Positions 19,019 through 27,368 of a stretch of 36,184 bases of DNA are shown one piece after another. The position numbers and the translations under genes are program-made. Source of the stretch: Candidatus Nitrosocaldus schleperae (GTDB lineage: Archaea; Thermoproteota; Nitrososphaeria; Nitrososphaerales; Nitrosocaldaceae); NCBI GenBank assembly GCA_013538805.1, contig JABXGR010000006.1:1-36184 (forward strand), written 5' to 3'. How positions within the stretch are numbered: position 1 is the stretch's first letter; every line of letters begins with the position of its first letter. The notes under the pieces were generated by a model. That model searched no databases. It was not told the origin of the DNA and saw only the letters and a program-made list of their open reading frames with translations.

Positions 19019-20047
19019 CTAGGTTATCCCAACTATCCTTGCAAGTTCCCTCCTTGAAGCAAAACTCAGCCTTGAGGCAGCATACTCTGGAGATACGTTG
19101 AGGAAGTGTACACCAAACCCCTCAAGCCCATGGCTATCAGTCATTTTAGGACTAACCTCTATATGCCAATGTAACTGCTTCCTACTCTTCTCAGATGATG
19201 TATGTACAATCATACTGAACCTCACATCACCTAGGGTATTGTAGAGCCCTCCAAGCATAACCCTAAGCATTGTAGCAAGCTCATCTATCTCCTTCTGGGT
19301 CATCCTCAACAACTGTACCATATGCTTCTTGGGCACTATCCAGAACTCGTATGGGCGGGTTGGGGCCCAAGGGCATAATGCCATGAAGTTCTCTATGCTG
19401 ACTAGGTGCCTAGGGCTCTTATCCTCCATGCTTACCATGTTGCATAAAGGGCATGAGCCAGCCTCATTTATGTATCTATTTATTGACTCAACCTCCTGCT
19501 CTATAAGTGGGGGTATGTAGGGGAAGGTTACTATGTTGAGGTGTGGATGCCATAAATCGCTAGCATCGTAGTCCATGTATACAGCAACATAACTAACGCC
19601 TTTCTGCATGTAGAGCCACTTCACCCTATCCTGTAGTGCTACAAGTACATTGGACCACTGCTCTGCTGGTATGGATGATGGCTTACAGTGCTCTCTACTT
19701 GCTATAAGCAGGTAATGGTAGCCGTATGCAGGTTCACTGTAGAATGGCTTGTTTGTATACTTGCCATTTGCAGATACGCTAACCAATGGGTTCTTGCTTG
19801 GTACTACTCTAACACACCAATCATCTACACGGTTATCCTCAGTATCTGAGAGCCTCCTCATCATCCCCTCCTTCTGTACAAGAGCGAGTACTGCTGGTCT
19901 AGTTAAATGCTCGTTACCAGGGCAGTATATACATATTCTCTCATCCCTATTCTTATCATTACCATCGTTGGCATCAACACCATCACCACTACCATCATTC
20001 ACTATCACTAACCTTTCAAGTATCTCATCCTTCCTGAAGTGAGTCAT
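19019..20047 (-). CDS. galT: Galactose-1-phosphate uridylyltransferase-like protein (GalT family, HIT superfamily)
   Basis: 342 residues. Two half-domains of the GalT fold are visible: zinc pairs CIYC (39-42) and CPLC (199-202), WHPHLN at 166-171, PYEFWIVPKKH at 232-242, and HWHIEVSP from 293. In typical GalT the active site is HPH(G/S)Q; here the Q position is N and G/S is L, so the reaction may not be Gal-1-P/UDP-Glc exchange. Related enzymes act as ADP-sugar phosphorylases or Ap4A phosphorylases. Residues 18-36 form an Asp/Gly/Asn-rich insert from simple repeats. The ATG at 20047 is preceded by a G-rich purine tract rather than a clear TATA box. It is divergent from apgM. Confidence 0.75.
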   Translation of the reverse strand: MTHFRKDEILERLVIVNDGSGDGVDANDGNDKNRDERICIYCPGNEHLTRPAVLALVQKEGMMRRLSDTEDNRVDDWCVRVVPSKNPLVSVSANGKYTNKPFYSEPAYGYHYLLIASREHCKPSSIPAEQWSNVLVALQDRVKWLYMQKGVSYVAVYMDYDASDLWHPHLNIVTFPYIPPLIEQEVESINRYINEAGSCPLCNMVSMEDKSPRHLVSIENFMALCPWAPTRPYEFWIVPKKHMVQLLRMTQKEIDELATMLRVMLGGLYNTLGDVRFSMIVHTSSEKSRKQLHWHIEVSPKMTDSHGLEGFGVHFLNVSPEYAASRLSFASRRELARIVGIT

Positions 20048-21636: not shown

Positions 21637-22221
21637 CTATAGCCTGTATTCTAGCATGGTTCTAGCATCCTTGCTATCTAATGCTACCATCATCCTCTTA
21701 ACCATCCCCTCTATATCTAGCCCATGATACCTGCATGGCTTGTTCTTTAGTTTGTCTAGTGCCCTTGCCAGTATGGATATGCATACATCGTACTCTGCCT
21801 TCTGTGCATGCACAAGAGCAGCACATACAAGTATGATGCCTTGTATGAGTTCCTTCTCATCACCCTTGCTATCCTTCCATGCCCCCTCTAGCACCTCATG
21901 TGCCTCCCAGTAACGCTCAGCATTGAATAGATCCCTAGCATGTAAGATCCTCTCATCCTTGCTCATACTCTTCTCATCTATCTTAGTATAGCCTAGCGTT
22001 GGTGCTATCCTCTCCATCTCTATAAGCAGTTTATTCAACATGCTCTGCTCAACGCTTACATCCAACTCTATATGCTTACTTGCTACCCTAACATCCCTTA
22101 CCTCTACCCCCTCTAACCCAGCATCAATGCATACCCTGCTAGCATTCTTCAAGAGCATCCTTGAATCCTCTGGCCTATAGCCATGGTTTACAAGCCTTAC
22201 CATATACCTTGAGTATACCAT
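21637..22221 (-). CDS. DUF309 domain protein
   Basis: 194 residues. The C-terminal half contains the DUF309 helical core ARDLFNAERYWEAHEVLEGAW followed by ELIQGIILVCAALVHAQ, whose invariant EAHE..E..W residues suggest a metal or ligand site. The N-terminal 90 residues have an alpha/beta pattern not typical of the short bacterial members. Function is unknown. The ATG at 22221 is about 26 nt below the AT core at 22243-22250, which it may share with the divergent S24e operon. Confidence 0.75.
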   Translation of the reverse strand: MVYSRYMVRLVNHGYRPEDSRMLLKNASRVCIDAGLEGVEVRDVRVASKHIELDVSVEQSMLNKLLIEMERIAPTLGYTKIDEKSMSKDERILHARDLFNAERYWEAHEVLEGAWKDSKGDEKELIQGIILVCAALVHAQKAEYDVCISILARALDKLKNKPCRYHGLDIEGMVKRMMVALDSKDARTMLEYRL

Positions 22222-22250: not shown

Positions 22251-22275
22251 GAGTTAAGGTATGGATGGAATGGTA

Positions 22276-22602
22276 ATGGATGGACTAGTGGTTGAGGAAG
22301 AGAGGCTTAACCCCTTGCTCAACAGGATAGAGTTGAGGTGTATAATCAAAGGCATGAATGGTATGTTGAAGAGGCAGGACGCTGCAAGGATGATAGCAGA
22401 GCATAGGGGTTATGCTGGGCGGTTCATAGTGCCTATAAACCTGAGGGGTGAGAAGGGCAAGAGTGATCTTAGATGCTTATTCTACATATACGAGGATGAG
22501 GGTACTGCTAGGTCTCAACTCCCAAGGTATATAATTGCAAGGCTGACTGGGGAGAAGGTAGATAAGAGTAAGAAAAGGAGTGAGGGTGAGAAGAAGAAAT
22601 AA
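22276..22602 (+). CDS. rps24e: Small ribosomal subunit protein S24e
   Basis: About 108 residues, with the S24e start pattern of a short strand then NPLLNRIEL, and the later I.....G.+.+.F.YIYEDE section typical of the family. The C-terminus is a lysine-rich tail KVDKSKKRSEGEKKK. It is part of the 30S subunit. ATGs at 22261, 22270 and 22276 are in frame; 22276 gives the N-terminus closest to other archaeal S24e and fits the promoter. S27ae follows after 24 nt, an order conserved in archaea. Confidence 0.85.
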   Translation: MDGLVVEEERLNPLLNRIELRCIIKGMNGMLKRQDAARMIAEHRGYAGRFIVPINLRGEKGKSDLRCLFYIYEDEGTARSQLPRYIIARLTGEKVDKSKKRSEGEKKK

Positions 22603-22626
22603 TGATGATGGTAAGGTGGTATGGAT

Positions 22627-22851
22627 ATGGGTAAGGGGAGCAATACACAGGTATGGAAGTACTATACTGTTGAGAATGATAGGATAAAGAAGGTAAGAAG
22701 AGAATGCCCAAGATGCGGTAGAGGGGTATTCATGGCTGAGCATAGTGATAGGGTTACATGTGGAAGGTGCAAGTATACAGAGTTCAAGCGTAAGGAGAAG
22801 GAGAGAGCGGGTAGAGGAGAGGAGGGAGGTAAAGGAAGGAAGAAGCAATAA
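22627..22851 (+). CDS. rps27ae: Small ribosomal subunit protein S27ae
   Basis: A 74-residue zinc-ribbon ribosomal protein: [22 protein letters not shown], then [11 protein letters not shown], supplying the four zinc cysteines in two CxxC pairs. The C-terminus is a lysine/glycine-rich tail. An in-frame ATG lies at 22621, directly after AGGTGGT (22614-22620); the ATG at 22627 has a proper 6-7 nt spacing to that element and is preferred. In many archaea the KEOPS gene kae1-bud32 follows; here the downstream gene is on the opposite strand. Confidence 0.9.
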
Positions 22852-23056: not shown

Positions 23057-24979
23057 TCAACACCTAAAGGATCTTATCTCTTCCCTAACAGCCTTGATTA
23101 TGCCTATAACCATTGCTGGGTAGAATGGTAGAAAGTAGGAACTCTTTGCTGCTCTTGCTATAGCATCACTACTGCCATGCTGGGCATAACCCTCTAGAAA
23201 TGCCCTTACAAACATCCTTGCCATATCCTCATCCCTTTTGAATAGTAGAGAGTAGTAGAGGAAGCATGCTATATCCCATGCCATATCATCGTAGTCTGTT
23301 GATGTGGAGAACTGCTCAAAGTCTGTAATGTATAGCATATCAGAGCTGGTTTTAGCAATAGCAGTACTGCCATCACTATAATCATCAGCATTATAAGGAG
23401 GAAGAGGAACAACAAGCACGTTACTTGGTTTTGTGTCTCTAAGTATGAACCCATTGGCATGTATCATGCCTAATAAAGCCCCATACCTCTTTACATGGCT
23501 TAGCAGCCCTTCCTCTCCTTCCATTCTATTTACTCTACCTGTTTGAACATGATCATTGCCATGGCTATGGCTATGGTTATGGTTATGATCACCAACCAAT
23601 GCATCAATCATGCTACTCAACGGGATACCATCTACATACTTGAATGCTATGAGCCTCTTCCCGAACGATACAGCCACAACCTCTGGCGTATTTATGCCTA
23701 GAGCCCTAACCCTCCTTACCCCTATATACTCGTTCATCATCCTCTTCTCTGGCGATACGTCGTAATGCCTTATCCCTGCTAGCCATACATTCAGTGCTAT
23801 CCACTTAGCCATCTTAACATTGGTGTAGTACTTGATGACTATGCTCTCCTTCTTCTTAGTAGCCTTCCCTCCTTCCATCCCTTCTTCATGCTCTAGTGTG
23901 CAGAGGCTTGTTGCTGCATGCTTATCACCTATGCTTGTGAACCTTGCAGAGTAACCATCTCTGAATCCTAGAGCCTCTGCTATCATATCAAGCCAAGAGT
24001 TACCATCAACAACTATACCCTCATTAACCTTGAGGAGTATAGTAGGAGTATCTAATGCTGGAGGTATGCTGTAAGCCTTGACCTCCTTCCTCCTCTTCAG
24101 TTTAGATGCAGCCTCCTCCTTGAAGAAGTTAAGGGTTCTTCTTGCTGCATATGAGTGTACAAGCCATGCAAATGCACCCCTGAACATCTCCTTCATCAAT
24201 GCCCTATGGTTACCCTTGCACTTATCCTTGAGCATGATATGGTAGTAATTGCCATCATCCCCATCTTTATGCACCTTCAACTCAATCCTACCTTCCTTTT
24301 CAAGTTCCCTCAATGCCCTCATGAAGCCTCTCCTGCTGATCTCCATATTCCTTGCTGCATGACTCCCTGTGTAGGTCTTCACATAACTGTACAGTGCATG
24401 TGGGTATATCCTTGCCCTCTTCTTGATCTTTGAGAATAGAAAGTACTCAAGGGGAATTGCAACCTCATCAGTAGCAACAAGGGGATTAAGCCCCATAAGT
24501 GTTGAATACTCCTCAACTATAACCCTCTTCTTGTATAAGGTCTCAACATCGTTGAGGTATGAACCATTGTACAATGGGAGATATGGGTGGAGGAGCCTAC
24601 CTGCAACGAACTCTCCAAGCATTGCATGCTCAGCATCCCTTAGGAGTGCCTTACCATCAACTACCAGCACTGATGCATTCAGCCTATAATCATCACGTAC
24701 ATAAACATACTTGATTATCTCCTTGTAATCCTTCAGTACAAGAAGGATATCATAATCGCTGTCTGGTCTAGCATAGCCTGATACCTTTGAGCCATATATG
24801 CAGTATGAGAGTATCTCACATCCATGCTCCTCTGCTATAGCATTAACGATCCTTGATAACTCCTTGCTATCATCAACACTTATGCTCTCCAAATAGTTTA
24901 TAGAATCATCACTACCTATAGGATCATCCCTACCATCACCCTCCCTCCTGCTCCCCTTCCCCATCTCCATGGATACCAT
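23057..24979 (-). CDS. Nucleotidyltransferase - winged helix - protein kinase-like fusion
   Basis: 640 residues in three parts. (1) About 40-165: MNT-type nucleotidyltransferase with YGSKVSGYARPDSDYD (GS at 63-64, D75 and D77), the metal-binding pattern. (2) About 170-250: winged-helix-like segment ending SRRGFMRALRELEKEGRIEL. (3) About 320-640: kinase-like domain with VIK (K383), a candidate helix-C Glu (E417), hinge FKYVDGIPL, catalytic loop ILRDTKPSN (D515, K517, N520; the HRD His is Leu) and DFE at 553-555. The kinase resembles small archaeal RIO/Bud32-type or phosphotransferase folds more than eukaryotic kinases. A His/Asn/Ser tract at 464-474 is an insertion. Its start overlaps the upstream peptidase-like gene by 44 nt, so the two are co-expressed. 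Substrates are unknown. Confidence 0.75.
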   Translation of the reverse strand: MVSMEMGKGSRREGDGRDDPIGSDDSINYLESISVDDSKELSRIVNAIAEEHGCEILSYCIYGSKVSGYARPDSDYDILLVLKDYKEIIKYVYVRDDYRLNASVLVVDGKALLRDAEHAMLGEFVAGRLLHPYLPLYNGSYLNDVETLYKKRVIVEEYSTLMGLNPLVATDEVAIPLEYFLFSKIKKRARIYPHALYSYVKTYTGSHAARNMEISRRGFMRALRELEKEGRIELKVHKDGDDGNYYHIMLKDKCKGNHRALMKEMFRGAFAWLVHSYAARRTLNFFKEEAASKLKRRKEVKAYSIPPALDTPTILLKVNEGIVVDGNSWLDMIAEALGFRDGYSARFTSIGDKHAATSLCTLEHEEGMEGGKATKKKESIVIKYYTNVKMAKWIALNVWLAGIRHYDVSPEKRMMNEYIGVRRVRALGINTPEVVAVSFGKRLIAFKYVDGIPLSSMIDALVGDHNHNHSHSHGNDHVQTGRVNRMEGEEGLLSHVKRYGALLGMIHANGFILRDTKPSNVLVVPLPPYNADDYSDGSTAIAKTSSDMLYITDFEQFSTSTDYDDMAWDIACFLYYSLLFKRDEDMARMFVRAFLEGYAQHGSSDAIARAAKSSYFLPFYPAMVIGIIKAVREEIRSFRC

Positions 24980-25757
24980 CCCTTATGCTCCCCTTCCTCC
25001 TACTACCTCTCTTCCTCTTGCTACTTCTACCACTAGCATTAATAAACTCATATATCTTGCTCCTTAACAGATCATCTATGCTGAACGATGCTATAGCCTC
25101 TATGGGTATCCTTGCAACATTAGCCTCAACACTAATCCTTGTAGTTGGTAGACCCTTCTCTATCCAATCCCTCATACACCTCTCCTCTAGCCTGTGATCA
25201 CTAAACCCATCTGGGAACTTCCTTGCGATAAGCCTGATAAGTGCTCTATCCTTCTTGAATACTATTCTTGGCTCTACAACCCTGCCCATATCAGCATAAA
25301 CACTCTCGAATATGCTACTTGAGATCTCATCAGATATGATGCTCATCTTAGCAAATCTAGCAAGTAGTTCTATGTAGTGAAGGAACTCATGTGCAAGTAT
25401 CGCATGTATAGTCCCTTTTAGCCCATATGCAACGAGTGGAGCAGTAACCTCAACAACTATTGATAACCTGTTATGACCATTGCTGTAACCATAATCATGA
25501 TCATAATCATAACTGCTCTCAGGCATCTCTTTAACTACAGGTATGGTTCTAGCAAACATAAGTCCTAAACCGTACTGGGCATCTGCTACAACCATCCTTG
25601 GCTCTATGTAATATTCTGGATATTCTATGCCAGATGCCCTCTCAACCCTCTCTATACCTTCAGTAACGTATCTGTAGCGTTCAATGATCCTAGCATATAT
25701 CTTCTCTGGCATCAATGATCTAGACTCCTCTACTCTATGCAGTGGATCTAACCTCAT
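24936..25757 (-). CDS. HExxH metallopeptidase-like protein
   Basis: 273 residues from the ATG at 25757. A helix with IHAILAHEFLHYIELLARF provides HEFLH, the zinc-binding HExxH pattern of zincin peptidases, in a hydrophobic helix context. A third ligand is probably one of the acidic residues in SSSIFESVYADMG about 20 residues later. No signal peptide or membrane helix, so cytoplasmic. A Tyr/Asp/Asn/Gly/His stretch (SYDYDHDYGYSNGHN) precedes the helix, and the C-terminus is very basic then acidic (RSSKRKRGSRRKG). The family is not recognised. An AT element TTTATAATAC lies about 27 nt before the ATG. It overlaps the kinase fusion gene by 44 nt. Confidence 0.65.
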   Translation of the reverse strand: MRLDPLHRVEESRSLMPEKIYARIIERYRYVTEGIERVERASGIEYPEYYIEPRMVVADAQYGLGLMFARTIPVVKEMPESSYDYDHDYGYSNGHNRLSIVVEVTAPLVAYGLKGTIHAILAHEFLHYIELLARFAKMSIISDEISSSIFESVYADMGRVVEPRIVFKKDRALIRLIARKFPDGFSDHRLEERCMRDWIEKGLPTTRISVEANVARIPIEAIASFSIDDLLRSKIYEFINASGRSSKRKRGSRRKGSIRDGIHGDGEGEQEGG

Positions 25758-25778
25758 GTTCAAGTTATCATCCTAGTA

Positions 25779-25816: not shown

Positions 25817-26848
25817 ATGATCGATCTATTACTAACATGCCCTCCTGGCTTAGAGGATGTGGTTGAGTTGGAGGCAAAGGAGAAGTTACCAGATGCACAT
25901 GTTAGCAAGAGGCATATGGGGGTTAGGGGGCATGTACTCCTGCATCTTGAGCGTGATGAGTGTATAGCCAAGGTACTCTCTATGCGCTCAATACACCATG
26001 TGATGAGGTATATAGCATCATTCAGCATAGAGAGGAGTAAGGATGCCCTCAACACAATATACAGGAATATCCTTGCTCTAGACCTCAATCTTGATGAAGG
26101 GGTTAGGTTCAGGGTTACGAGCGAGAGGCTTGGGAGGCATGAGTTCACATCTATAGATGTGCAGAGGATTGCTGGTAAGGCAATAGTTGATAGGTTCTCA
26201 AGTAAGGTTGATCTTGAGCATTATGATGTTGAGGTTAGGGTTGATGTTGTAGGGGAGCAGTGTATAGTAGGTGTAGCATTGACAAGGGAGTCACTCCATA
26301 AGAGAGGGTATAGAGTATTTGATCATCCAGCAGCACTAAAGGCAAGTATAGCGTATGCTATGCTTAGGCTTGCAGAGCCTAGAGCAGGGAATATACTTGT
26401 TGATCCAATGTGTGGTTCTGGTACAATACCCATAGAGGCAGCACTAGCAATGCCAACTCTGAACCTAGAACTCTATGGGTTCGATGTAAATACCATTTAC
26501 ATAGATGGTGCAAAGGCAAATGCAGAGAGTGCAGGGGTTGGGAGGCTTATAAAGTTCATGTGCTATGATTGTAGGATGCTTGATAGGATAGTTACTCCAG
26601 ATAGGATAGTCACAAACCCCCCATATGGGATAAGGATGGAGCCTAGCATTGGGCTAAGGAACCTCTACATGGGGTTTGCAAAGGCATCGTACAGGGCTAT
26701 GGTGGATGGCGGTAGGATAGTTGTTATAACACTCAAGCATGGGATGATGAAGAGCATGCTAACATCCTCTGGCTTCAACATCATCAAGAGCATCCCTGTC
26801 ATGCATGGCGATCTATGGACACACATAATAGTTGGGGAGAAGAGGTAA
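25817..26848 (+). CDS. THUMP-domain tRNA guanine-N2 methyltransferase, Trm14-like
   Basis: 343 residues. The N-terminal 165 or so carry an NFLD/THUMP-type RNA-binding region, including VRVDVVGEQCIVGVALTRESL followed by HKRGYR. The rest is a Rossmann SAM-dependent methyltransferase with motif I DPMCGSGTIPIEAAL from D196 and motif IV TNPPYG (N267-P-P-Y). The NPPY tetrapeptide fits exocyclic amino-group methylation. DPMCGSGT with THUMP is the pattern of Trm14 (m2G6 in tRNA) and bacterial RlmL; Trm-G10 enzymes usually read DPFCGTGG. It should act on tRNA in the cytosol. The start at 25817 is unambiguous. Confidence 0.85.
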   Translation: MIDLLLTCPPGLEDVVELEAKEKLPDAHVSKRHMGVRGHVLLHLERDECIAKVLSMRSIHHVMRYIASFSIERSKDALNTIYRNILALDLNLDEGVRFRVTSERLGRHEFTSIDVQRIAGKAIVDRFSSKVDLEHYDVEVRVDVVGEQCIVGVALTRESLHKRGYRVFDHPAALKASIAYAMLRLAEPRAGNILVDPMCGSGTIPIEAALAMPTLNLELYGFDVNTIYIDGAKANAESAGVGRLIKFMCYDCRMLDRIVTPDRIVTNPPYGIRMEPSIGLRNLYMGFAKASYRAMVDGGRIVVITLKHGMMKSMLTSSGFNIIKSIPVMHGDLWTHIIVGEKR

Positions 26849-26960
26849 TAGAAGAGAAGTAAGGGAACAAGCAGAATGGATTGGATATGGAAAGGGATGG
26901 GTAGATGATAGCGAAGGATTAAATTAAATAAAGCATGTCCATTCCTTGAATGGATGTAGG

Positions 26961-27368
26961 ATGGGCACGTTCCAGTACTTCACACCACAACAGGCTAATA
27001 GAATGCTAGGAGAGGTTAGGAGGAGGTTTAACAACATAGTTGCCATAAGGGATGAGGTGCTTGAGCTGCAGGAGGAGTTGCAGAGTATAGTTGATCATGA
27101 TGCCTCACTACAGGCATACATAGAGAAGAAGCAAAGACTCAACTCTGCACTCACAAGGCTCTATGCTGCAATAGAGGAGTTGGAGGCCATGGGTGTTGTG
27201 TTGAAGAGCATAGATGAAGGGTTGATAGACTTCCCAGCGAAGAGGTTCGATGAGGATGTATGGCTCTGCTGGAAGGCTGGAGAGGATGAGGTTAAGTTCT
27301 GGCATGGCAAGGATGAGGGGTTCATGGGTAGGAAGCCTCTACCAGTTAGCGATGAGTCTCTAGTCTAA
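26961..27368 (+). CDS. DUF2203 family protein
   Basis: 135 residues. It opens with YFTPQQANRMLGEVRRRF, the characteristic DUF2203 start, followed by a long amphipathic helical hairpin (about 20-85). The conserved end follows: GVVLKSIDEGLIDFPA, then VWLCWKAGEDEVKFWH, then GRKPL. The last region, with C/W/H residues, looks like a small globular cap. The biochemical role is unknown; the family is common in thermophilic bacteria and archaea. The TTG at 26946 opens the frame, but the ATG at 26961 begins next to the conserved segment and follows an AT-rich box at 26918-26930. Confidence 0.8.
   Translation: MGTFQYFTPQQANRMLGEVRRRFNNIVAIRDEVLELQEELQSIVDHDASLQAYIEKKQRLNSALTRLYAAIEELEAMGVVLKSIDEGLIDFPAKRFDEDVWLCWKAGEDEVKFWHGKDEGFMGRKPLPVSDESLV

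Follow-up and report, generated by a model that had tools for sequence, protein, structure and literature searches.

Three atypical kinases of the RIO/Bud32 cluster are commonly listed for archaea, namely RIO1, RIO2 and Bud32. In RIO2, a winged helix goes with an atypical kinase that works on the pre-30S subunit as an ATPase. Among the nucleotidyltransferases (NTases), MNT domains silence HEPN toxins, and Tam41 makes CDP-diacylglycerol. Rio, Bud32 and KdoK have been described as forming one loose cluster (Kannan et al., 2007; PMC1821047). Tam41 is reported to retain just one of the three acidic residues of the NTases (PMC11646218). Here we describe a gene pair on contig JABXGR010000006.1 of Candidatus Nitrosocaldus schleperae (positions 1 to 36,184, forward strand; this whole stretch of 36,184 nucleotides (nt) is called the window, and coordinates refer to positions in it), in which pep, a gene for an HExxH peptidase-like protein, is followed by kin, which joins an NTase, a winged helix and a RIO/Bud32-like kinase in one polypeptide. 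The folds are already known. What we did not find described in the open-access literature is the three-domain family, the further RIO/Bud32-related clade, the operon with the peptidase and the loss of one or the other catalytic head according to the partner; that literature likewise held no Thaumarchaeota-specific family of this kind and no RNase J-kinase operon. This agrees with an initial annotation, made from the sequence alone, that knew of no system with such a combination, and the family has likely been noticed already as an uncharacterised cluster.

Both open reading frames (ORFs) were found on the minus strand, pep upstream and kin downstream, and they overlap as first reported:

24936..25763, minus strand: peptidase-like gene pep, 275 amino acids (aa) from TTG 25763, or 273 aa from ATG 25757
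23057..24979, minus strand: NTase-winged-helix-kinase fusion gene kin, 640 aa, ATG start
24936..24979, minus strand: overlap of pep and kin, exactly 44 nt

The AlphaFold2 model of the fusion, built on a 29-sequence alignment (predicted local distance difference test, pLDDT, 82.6; predicted template modelling score, pTM, 0.82), shows the NTase, the winged helix, the linker helices and the kinase in this order. Foldseek aligned it to Bud32/PRPK, WaaP, aminoglycoside NTases, Tam41 and RIO2, so that the three domains named in the initial annotation are all real:

24590..24877, minus strand: NTase domain, about residues 35-130 (PF01909, AlphaFold2, Foldseek matches to ANT/KNTase and Tam41)
24749..24793, minus strand: NTase catalytic motif G63-S64...D75-x-D77
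24230..24451, minus strand: winged-helix segment, residues 177-250, three helices and a two-strand wing (AlphaFold2 secondary structure; weak HTH_29 match)
24035..24202, minus strand: linker helices, residues 260-315, with invariant E289, S292, K293, R296 and P312, kept even where the kinase is deleted
23066..23995, minus strand: RIO/Bud32-like kinase domain, about residues 329-638 (TIGR03724 E 3.7e-10, below cut-off; Foldseek Bud32/PRPK E 7e-8)
23420..23437, minus strand: catalytic loop D515-x-K517-x-x-N520
23315..23323, minus strand: DFG-equivalent motif D553-F-E555

The NTase head passes the Pfam model PF01909 (NTP_transf_2; 22.1 bits, cut-off 21), the other Pfam matches being weak or sub-threshold. 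On its palm fold it carries the GS motif and the three carboxylates of the NTase (pol beta/MNT) superfamily; the motif reads in full Y62-G63-S64...S74-D75-Y-D77, and D108 is the third acidic residue. In the kinase head, the window protein and its homologues hold the residue set predicted for an active protein-kinase-like enzyme (K383, E417, D515, N520 and D553/E555). The catalytic residues singled out at first (D75, D77, K383, D515, N520 and DFE) are placed as stated and conserved: in the full fusions of the order Nitrososphaerales, G63, S64, D75, D77, K383, N520 and E555 are invariant, while E417 and D553 are nearly so.

The product of pep is predicted to be a cytoplasmic single-domain HExxH zinc-peptidase-like protein, with proteolysis as its predicted activity. 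Its HEFLH motif lies within a helix, as had been proposed, and HEF.H is invariant among the homologues, like D158, W200 and P206; an invariant HExxH on a helix is the mark of the HExxH zinc metallopeptidases.

25377..25391, minus strand: HEFLH zinc-binding/catalytic motif, pep residues 125-129 (76/76 homologues; predicted helix 116-143)
25290..25307, minus strand: candidate third metal ligand E153 and invariant D158, E153-SVYA-D158 (in the alignment, D158 76/76, E153 66/76)

In the AlphaFold2 model of pep (pLDDT 80.8) the HExxH helix is well predicted and the E153/D158 stretch is of low confidence, so that the ligand role of the latter is putative. Like the SprT/DA1-like and the minigluzincin (jannalysin, selecase) metallopeptidases, pep is a small single-domain HExxH protein, and weak Pfam matches occur in 18 and 8 of the 38 pep members. 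Unlike them, it falls below every curated cut-off among the profile models and has only a candidate third ligand. Foldseek against the PDB and viral libraries gave no significant fold match (the best PDB matches include jannalysin/selecase, E 0.6), and PDB sequence searches returned nothing useful.

Catalytic heads and partner genes

About 100 relatives were compared, the lineage names of their genomes being inferred assignments. Wherever a Nitrososphaerales genome carries the fusion with enough flanking sequence, pep lies directly upstream on the same strand, overlapping it or at most 63 nt away (about 37 distinct genomes, i.e., all the informative ones). Since homologues of the fusion reach E 1e-138 in other families of the phylum, and since the same-strand adjacency holds in every informative genome, the observation lies, by these measures, far beyond chance. 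pep-kin is a conserved operon of the Nitrososphaerales and is predicted to be a co-translated two-gene unit there.

A second partner exists in another lineage. At 27 loci (families f18, f27, f36, f50, f54, f68 and f70, Bathyarchaeia-like; L120, L124-L128, L233-L261, L272) the gene directly after the fusion, on the same strand, encodes an RNase J-like beta-CASP nuclease. This protein shares with the RNase J family the match to TIGR00649 and every beta-CASP/MBL metal-binding motif. It scores 100 bits where the cut-off is 400, which makes it a distinct relative of RNase J, and its gene is distinct from the ordinary RNase J-type paralogues. In the Nitrosocaldus genome it is missing. Separately, in family f46 (L118, 9254-10820), the fusion gene stands between CysRS, which precedes it, and a 111-aa ORF, after which come an archaemetzincin (M54) gene, i.e., another zinc-metallopeptidase neighbour of the fusion, and a HemK2-like methyltransferase gene.

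The state of the two heads goes with the partner. Taking the NTase as intact when it has both the GS and the DxD motif, it is intact in 38/38 pep-paired proteins, in 0/27 nuclease-paired ones and in 11/44 of the other fusion proteins; 27/27 nuclease-paired proteins have an intact kinase. Mean pairwise identity follows the same line, with 0.55 for the NTase and 0.39 for the kinase in the pep-paired set, as against 0.31 and 0.51 in the nuclease-paired set.

Within the pep-paired set the kinase was lost at least twice and in two different ways. In five genomes, of marine Nitrososphaerales relatives (L046-L050), it is wholly missing by a clean deletion: a 279-292 aa NTase-winged-helix protein follows pep, and its stop lies within about 20 nt of the end of the convergent S27ae gene. 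These forms retain the linker residues E289, S292, K293 and R296, and NTase, winged helix and linker (about residues 30-320) are thus a self-contained unit. In five other pep-paired proteins (L015, L019, L026, L060 and L131) the catalytic Asp D515 is replaced by Asn (GNxKPKN; FGNIKPKNVI for LRDTKPSNVL). They belong to family f7 (Nitrososphaeraceae) where a family could be assigned, keep the NTase and the DxE motif, and may be pseudokinases.

The initial annotation had tied both heads to the peptidase. This holds for the NTase, strictly kept beside pep, but not for the kinase, deleted or Asp-less in the same set; nucleotidyl transfer, rather than phosphorylation, would then track the peptidase, and the data suggest that the NTase head is the part tied to it. 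The reading that we favour, as a tentative one that may well prove wrong, is that the pep-kin unit performs NTase-controlled proteolysis, possibly near the ribosome.

Several observations weigh against this reading. In a phylum-wide sample, pep was present in 73/74 genomes of the order and the fusion in seven, where it was paired with pep in 7/7; pep stood alone in 63 Nitrosopumilaceae-type genomes and in 3 further genomes of the order. Outside the order pep occurs in two families only (f20 and f52), essentially without the fusion, and in the single f20 genome with both genes (G162) they lie on different contigs. In turn, the fusion, or a decayed form of it, is widespread in the phylum (Thermoproteota) without pep. 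The lone pep of Nitrosopumilaceae-type and f20/f52 genomes implies that it needs no NTase. As each gene exists in large groups that lack the other, neither is an obligate partner and the two form no strict system, so that of the system proposed at first the conserved operon of Nitrososphaerales is what stands. Furthermore, a single lineage makes up most of the pep-paired set, and another most of the nuclease-paired set; the residue counts are thus not independent events, and the correlation comprises few independent events.

The surroundings of the pair bear on another explanation. The ribosomal protein genes that had been noticed next door lie on the opposite strand:

22261..22851, plus strand: rpS24e (22261-22602) and rpS27ae (22621-22851), convergent neighbours outside the pep-kin operon

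S27ae-S24e lie convergently downstream of the pair in Nitrososphaerales loci, and the upstream side of pep varies by group, at least three settings being seen: a THUMP methyltransferase, an AsnC-type regulator, or Pus10-SRP54-diphthamide synthase. The two could be core genes with no functional tie, kept adjacent through vertical descent alone; each lives without the other elsewhere, and the S27ae/S24e neighbours are conserved too. However, the overlap is kept in nearly all pairs despite repeated rearrangement upstream, and the NTase is strictly preserved with pep and decayed in most of the unpaired set, which makes this explanation unlikely in our view.

Beside this, the lone pep of Nitrosopumilaceae-type genomes (L134-L140, L151-L153) occupies the same S24e-adjacent place, preceded by Pus10, SRP54, diphthamide synthase and, in many cases, IF5A. 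Suf iron-sulfur genes, guessed from their sizes as pep neighbours in this family, were discarded when Pfam gave Pus10, SRP54, diphthamide synthase and IF5A instead.

The same distribution tells on a toxin-antitoxin or defence module, in which an MntA-like NTase, or the kinase, would silence a toxic peptidase. The silencing of HEPN toxins by MNT domains offers a precedent, and the NTase has weak matches to MntA and to PADLOC PDC-S09. Nevertheless, where such a module would have a toxin never found without its antitoxin and a patchy, mobile spread, pep is alone in 66 sampled genomes of the order, is kept partnerless in all the sampled Nitrosopumilaceae-type genomes, and occurs in nearly every genome of the order, next to genes for ribosomal proteins and with fixed synteny. 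Phage records showed no relative of the fusion. Moreover, the MntA model NF047752 gives 19.6 bits (cut-off 60), and the adjacent gene encodes the HExxH protein instead of a HEPN toxin. We hold such a module to be extremely improbable, and NTase-controlled proteolysis remains the favoured reading.

Affinities of the kinase and nucleotidyltransferase heads

Bud32/PRPK of KEOPS is the closest known protein to the fusion kinase by both sequence profile and fold. However, with the Bud32 model TIGR03724 the fusion kinase scores 39.6 bits against a cut-off of 125, while the true Bud32 encoded elsewhere in the genome, for which the initial annotation had advised looking, reaches 213.9 bits. A separate true Bud32 above cut-off is present in 24/24 genomes checked, the window's own included; RIO1 and RIO2 are also present as separate proteins. 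In a tree of 123 kinase sequences, the 87 fusion-type kinases form one clade with an ultrafast bootstrap (UFBoot) support of 100, the Bud32 split having 99 and that of RIO 100. Unlike Bud32, moreover, this kinase is fused to an NTase and a winged helix, and its gene does not adjoin kae1 in the window. It belongs near the Rio/Bud32/KdoK cluster; judged by profile and tree, it is neither Bud32 nor RIO, and would be a fourth archaeal RIO/Bud32-related family beside Bud32, RIO1 and RIO2.

A KEOPS role, which had been suggested from the ribosomal neighbours, is rejected on account of the separate Bud32 in all 24 genomes and the convergent orientation of the gene to S24e-S27ae, together with the missed Bud32 cut-off. 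Kinase-only relatives of 223-226 aa occur in one lineage (Sulfolobaceae-type; L157, L168), of which the sole genome tested, G439, has a true Bud32 elsewhere. These short relatives may correspond to one of the kinases left unexplained in PMC5682000.

The likeness to RIO2 supports the main rival to the favoured reading, namely that the NTase acts on RNA. The pair would then be an RNA or ribosome-assembly factor with RIO2-like action, in which the NTase adds nucleotides to RNA and the peptidase acts on a protein associated with the ribosome, trimming it or removing it. In RIO2, as in the fusion, a winged helix precedes the atypical kinase; Foldseek aligns RIO2 structures (4gyg, 7vbt) over at least 450 columns, and 16/29 members of the fusion family have weak RIO domain matches. 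Furthermore, the family has weak RlaP and MTPAP-like NTase matches, S24e/S27ae and Pus10/SRP54 are neighbours, and in the other lineage the same scaffold is joined with the RNase J-like nuclease. On the other hand, the fusion has an extra NTase head and sits in a different clade, genuine RIO1 and RIO2 already coexist with it, the window protein does not match the RIO Pfam domain (PF01163) at E<=1, some pep-paired genomes dispense with the kinase, and the ribosomal genes are convergent, not co-transcribed. We regard an action on RNA as rather doubtful, though worth weighing seriously.

As for the NTase head, it shares GSxxxG...SDxD and a third acidic residue with the MNT/ANT NTases (MntA, kanamycin NTase), and Foldseek matches it to ANT4''/KNTase; it differs from them in the lack of a HEPN partner, in belonging to a larger fusion protein and in that no aminoglycoside-specific model is over cut-off.

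The fold match to the CDP-diacylglycerol synthase Tam41 would fit a small-molecule pathway, where the kinase phosphorylates a metabolite or lipid, the NTase activates the product with a nucleotide in the manner of Tam41, and the peptidase is incidental. This match covers about 300 columns (the NTase and the following domain), the sugar-lipid kinase WaaP is matched as well, and 4/29 members match the Kdo/WaaP Pfam family. By contrast, no protein of the genome matches the Tam41 Pfam model (PF09139) at E<=1, and the fusion has all three NTase acidic residues where Tam41 has one (PMC11646218); Tam41 membership was rejected. In addition, several lineages lose one head and keep the other, and no consistent pathway neighbours were seen at the loci compared. 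Such a pathway seems quite improbable to us.

A proposed mechanism and its bearing

Under NTase-controlled proteolysis, the winged-helix segment would position the fusion on RNA, DNA or another protein, and the NTase head would nucleotidylate a protein, be it the peptidase or one that the peptidase cuts, and so gate limited proteolysis. The kinase head, a RIO/Bud32-like ATP switch, would tune this gating without being essential. The scaffold of the sister lineage would have lost NTase catalysis and work via its kinase beside the RNase J-like nuclease. A ribosomal or translation-linked target is a first guess, from S24e and S27ae here and from Pus10, SRP54 and diphthamide synthase in relatives. 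Such a link to translation, drawn from ribosomal protein genes and, among relatives, from Pus10, SRP54, Dph6 and IF5A, is no more than suggestive, as the ribosomal genes are convergent and the contexts vary, which again counts against the proposal.

More broadly, NTase, winged helix and atypical kinase could constitute one ancient archaeal scaffold, a modular controller of metallohydrolases whose NTase head governs a zinc peptidase in one lineage, where the kinase can disappear, and whose kinase head governs an RNase J-like nuclease in another, where the NTase is inactive; we offer this as a speculation that is on the whole unlikely. If true, it would add a fourth conserved family to the archaeal kinases related to RIO/Bud32 and would be, so far as our searches show, the first case of an NTase tied to a peptidase. 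The further conserved clade, with its extra catalytic head, runs through much of the Thermoproteota, including ammonia oxidisers of soils and hot springs. With its heads lost in a complementary fashion, in step with the partner gene, an uncharacterised protein becomes a directly testable two-headed system. Furthermore, an HExxH family that lacked annotation, present in nearly every sampled Nitrososphaerales genome, gains a functional lead.

Neighbouring genes and minor features

A DUF309 protein of 194 aa (21637-22221, minus strand) is found near S24e in many Nitrososphaerales loci. On the other side of the pair, a DUF2203 protein (26946-27368, plus strand) lies downstream of the THUMP methyltransferase (25817-26848), both being conserved together in the genus. 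Further away, a GalT/HIT-fold protein (PF02744 match; 19019-20047, minus strand) adjoins a phosphoglycerate mutase gene.

Both proteins of the pair carry low-complexity inserts rich in His, Asp, Asn and Tyr, at kin residues 466-485 (23525-23584) and pep residues 85-95 (25479-25511), with the sequences NHNHSHSHGNDH and YDYDHDYGY. These inserts have low model confidence and are missing in most relatives outside the genus.

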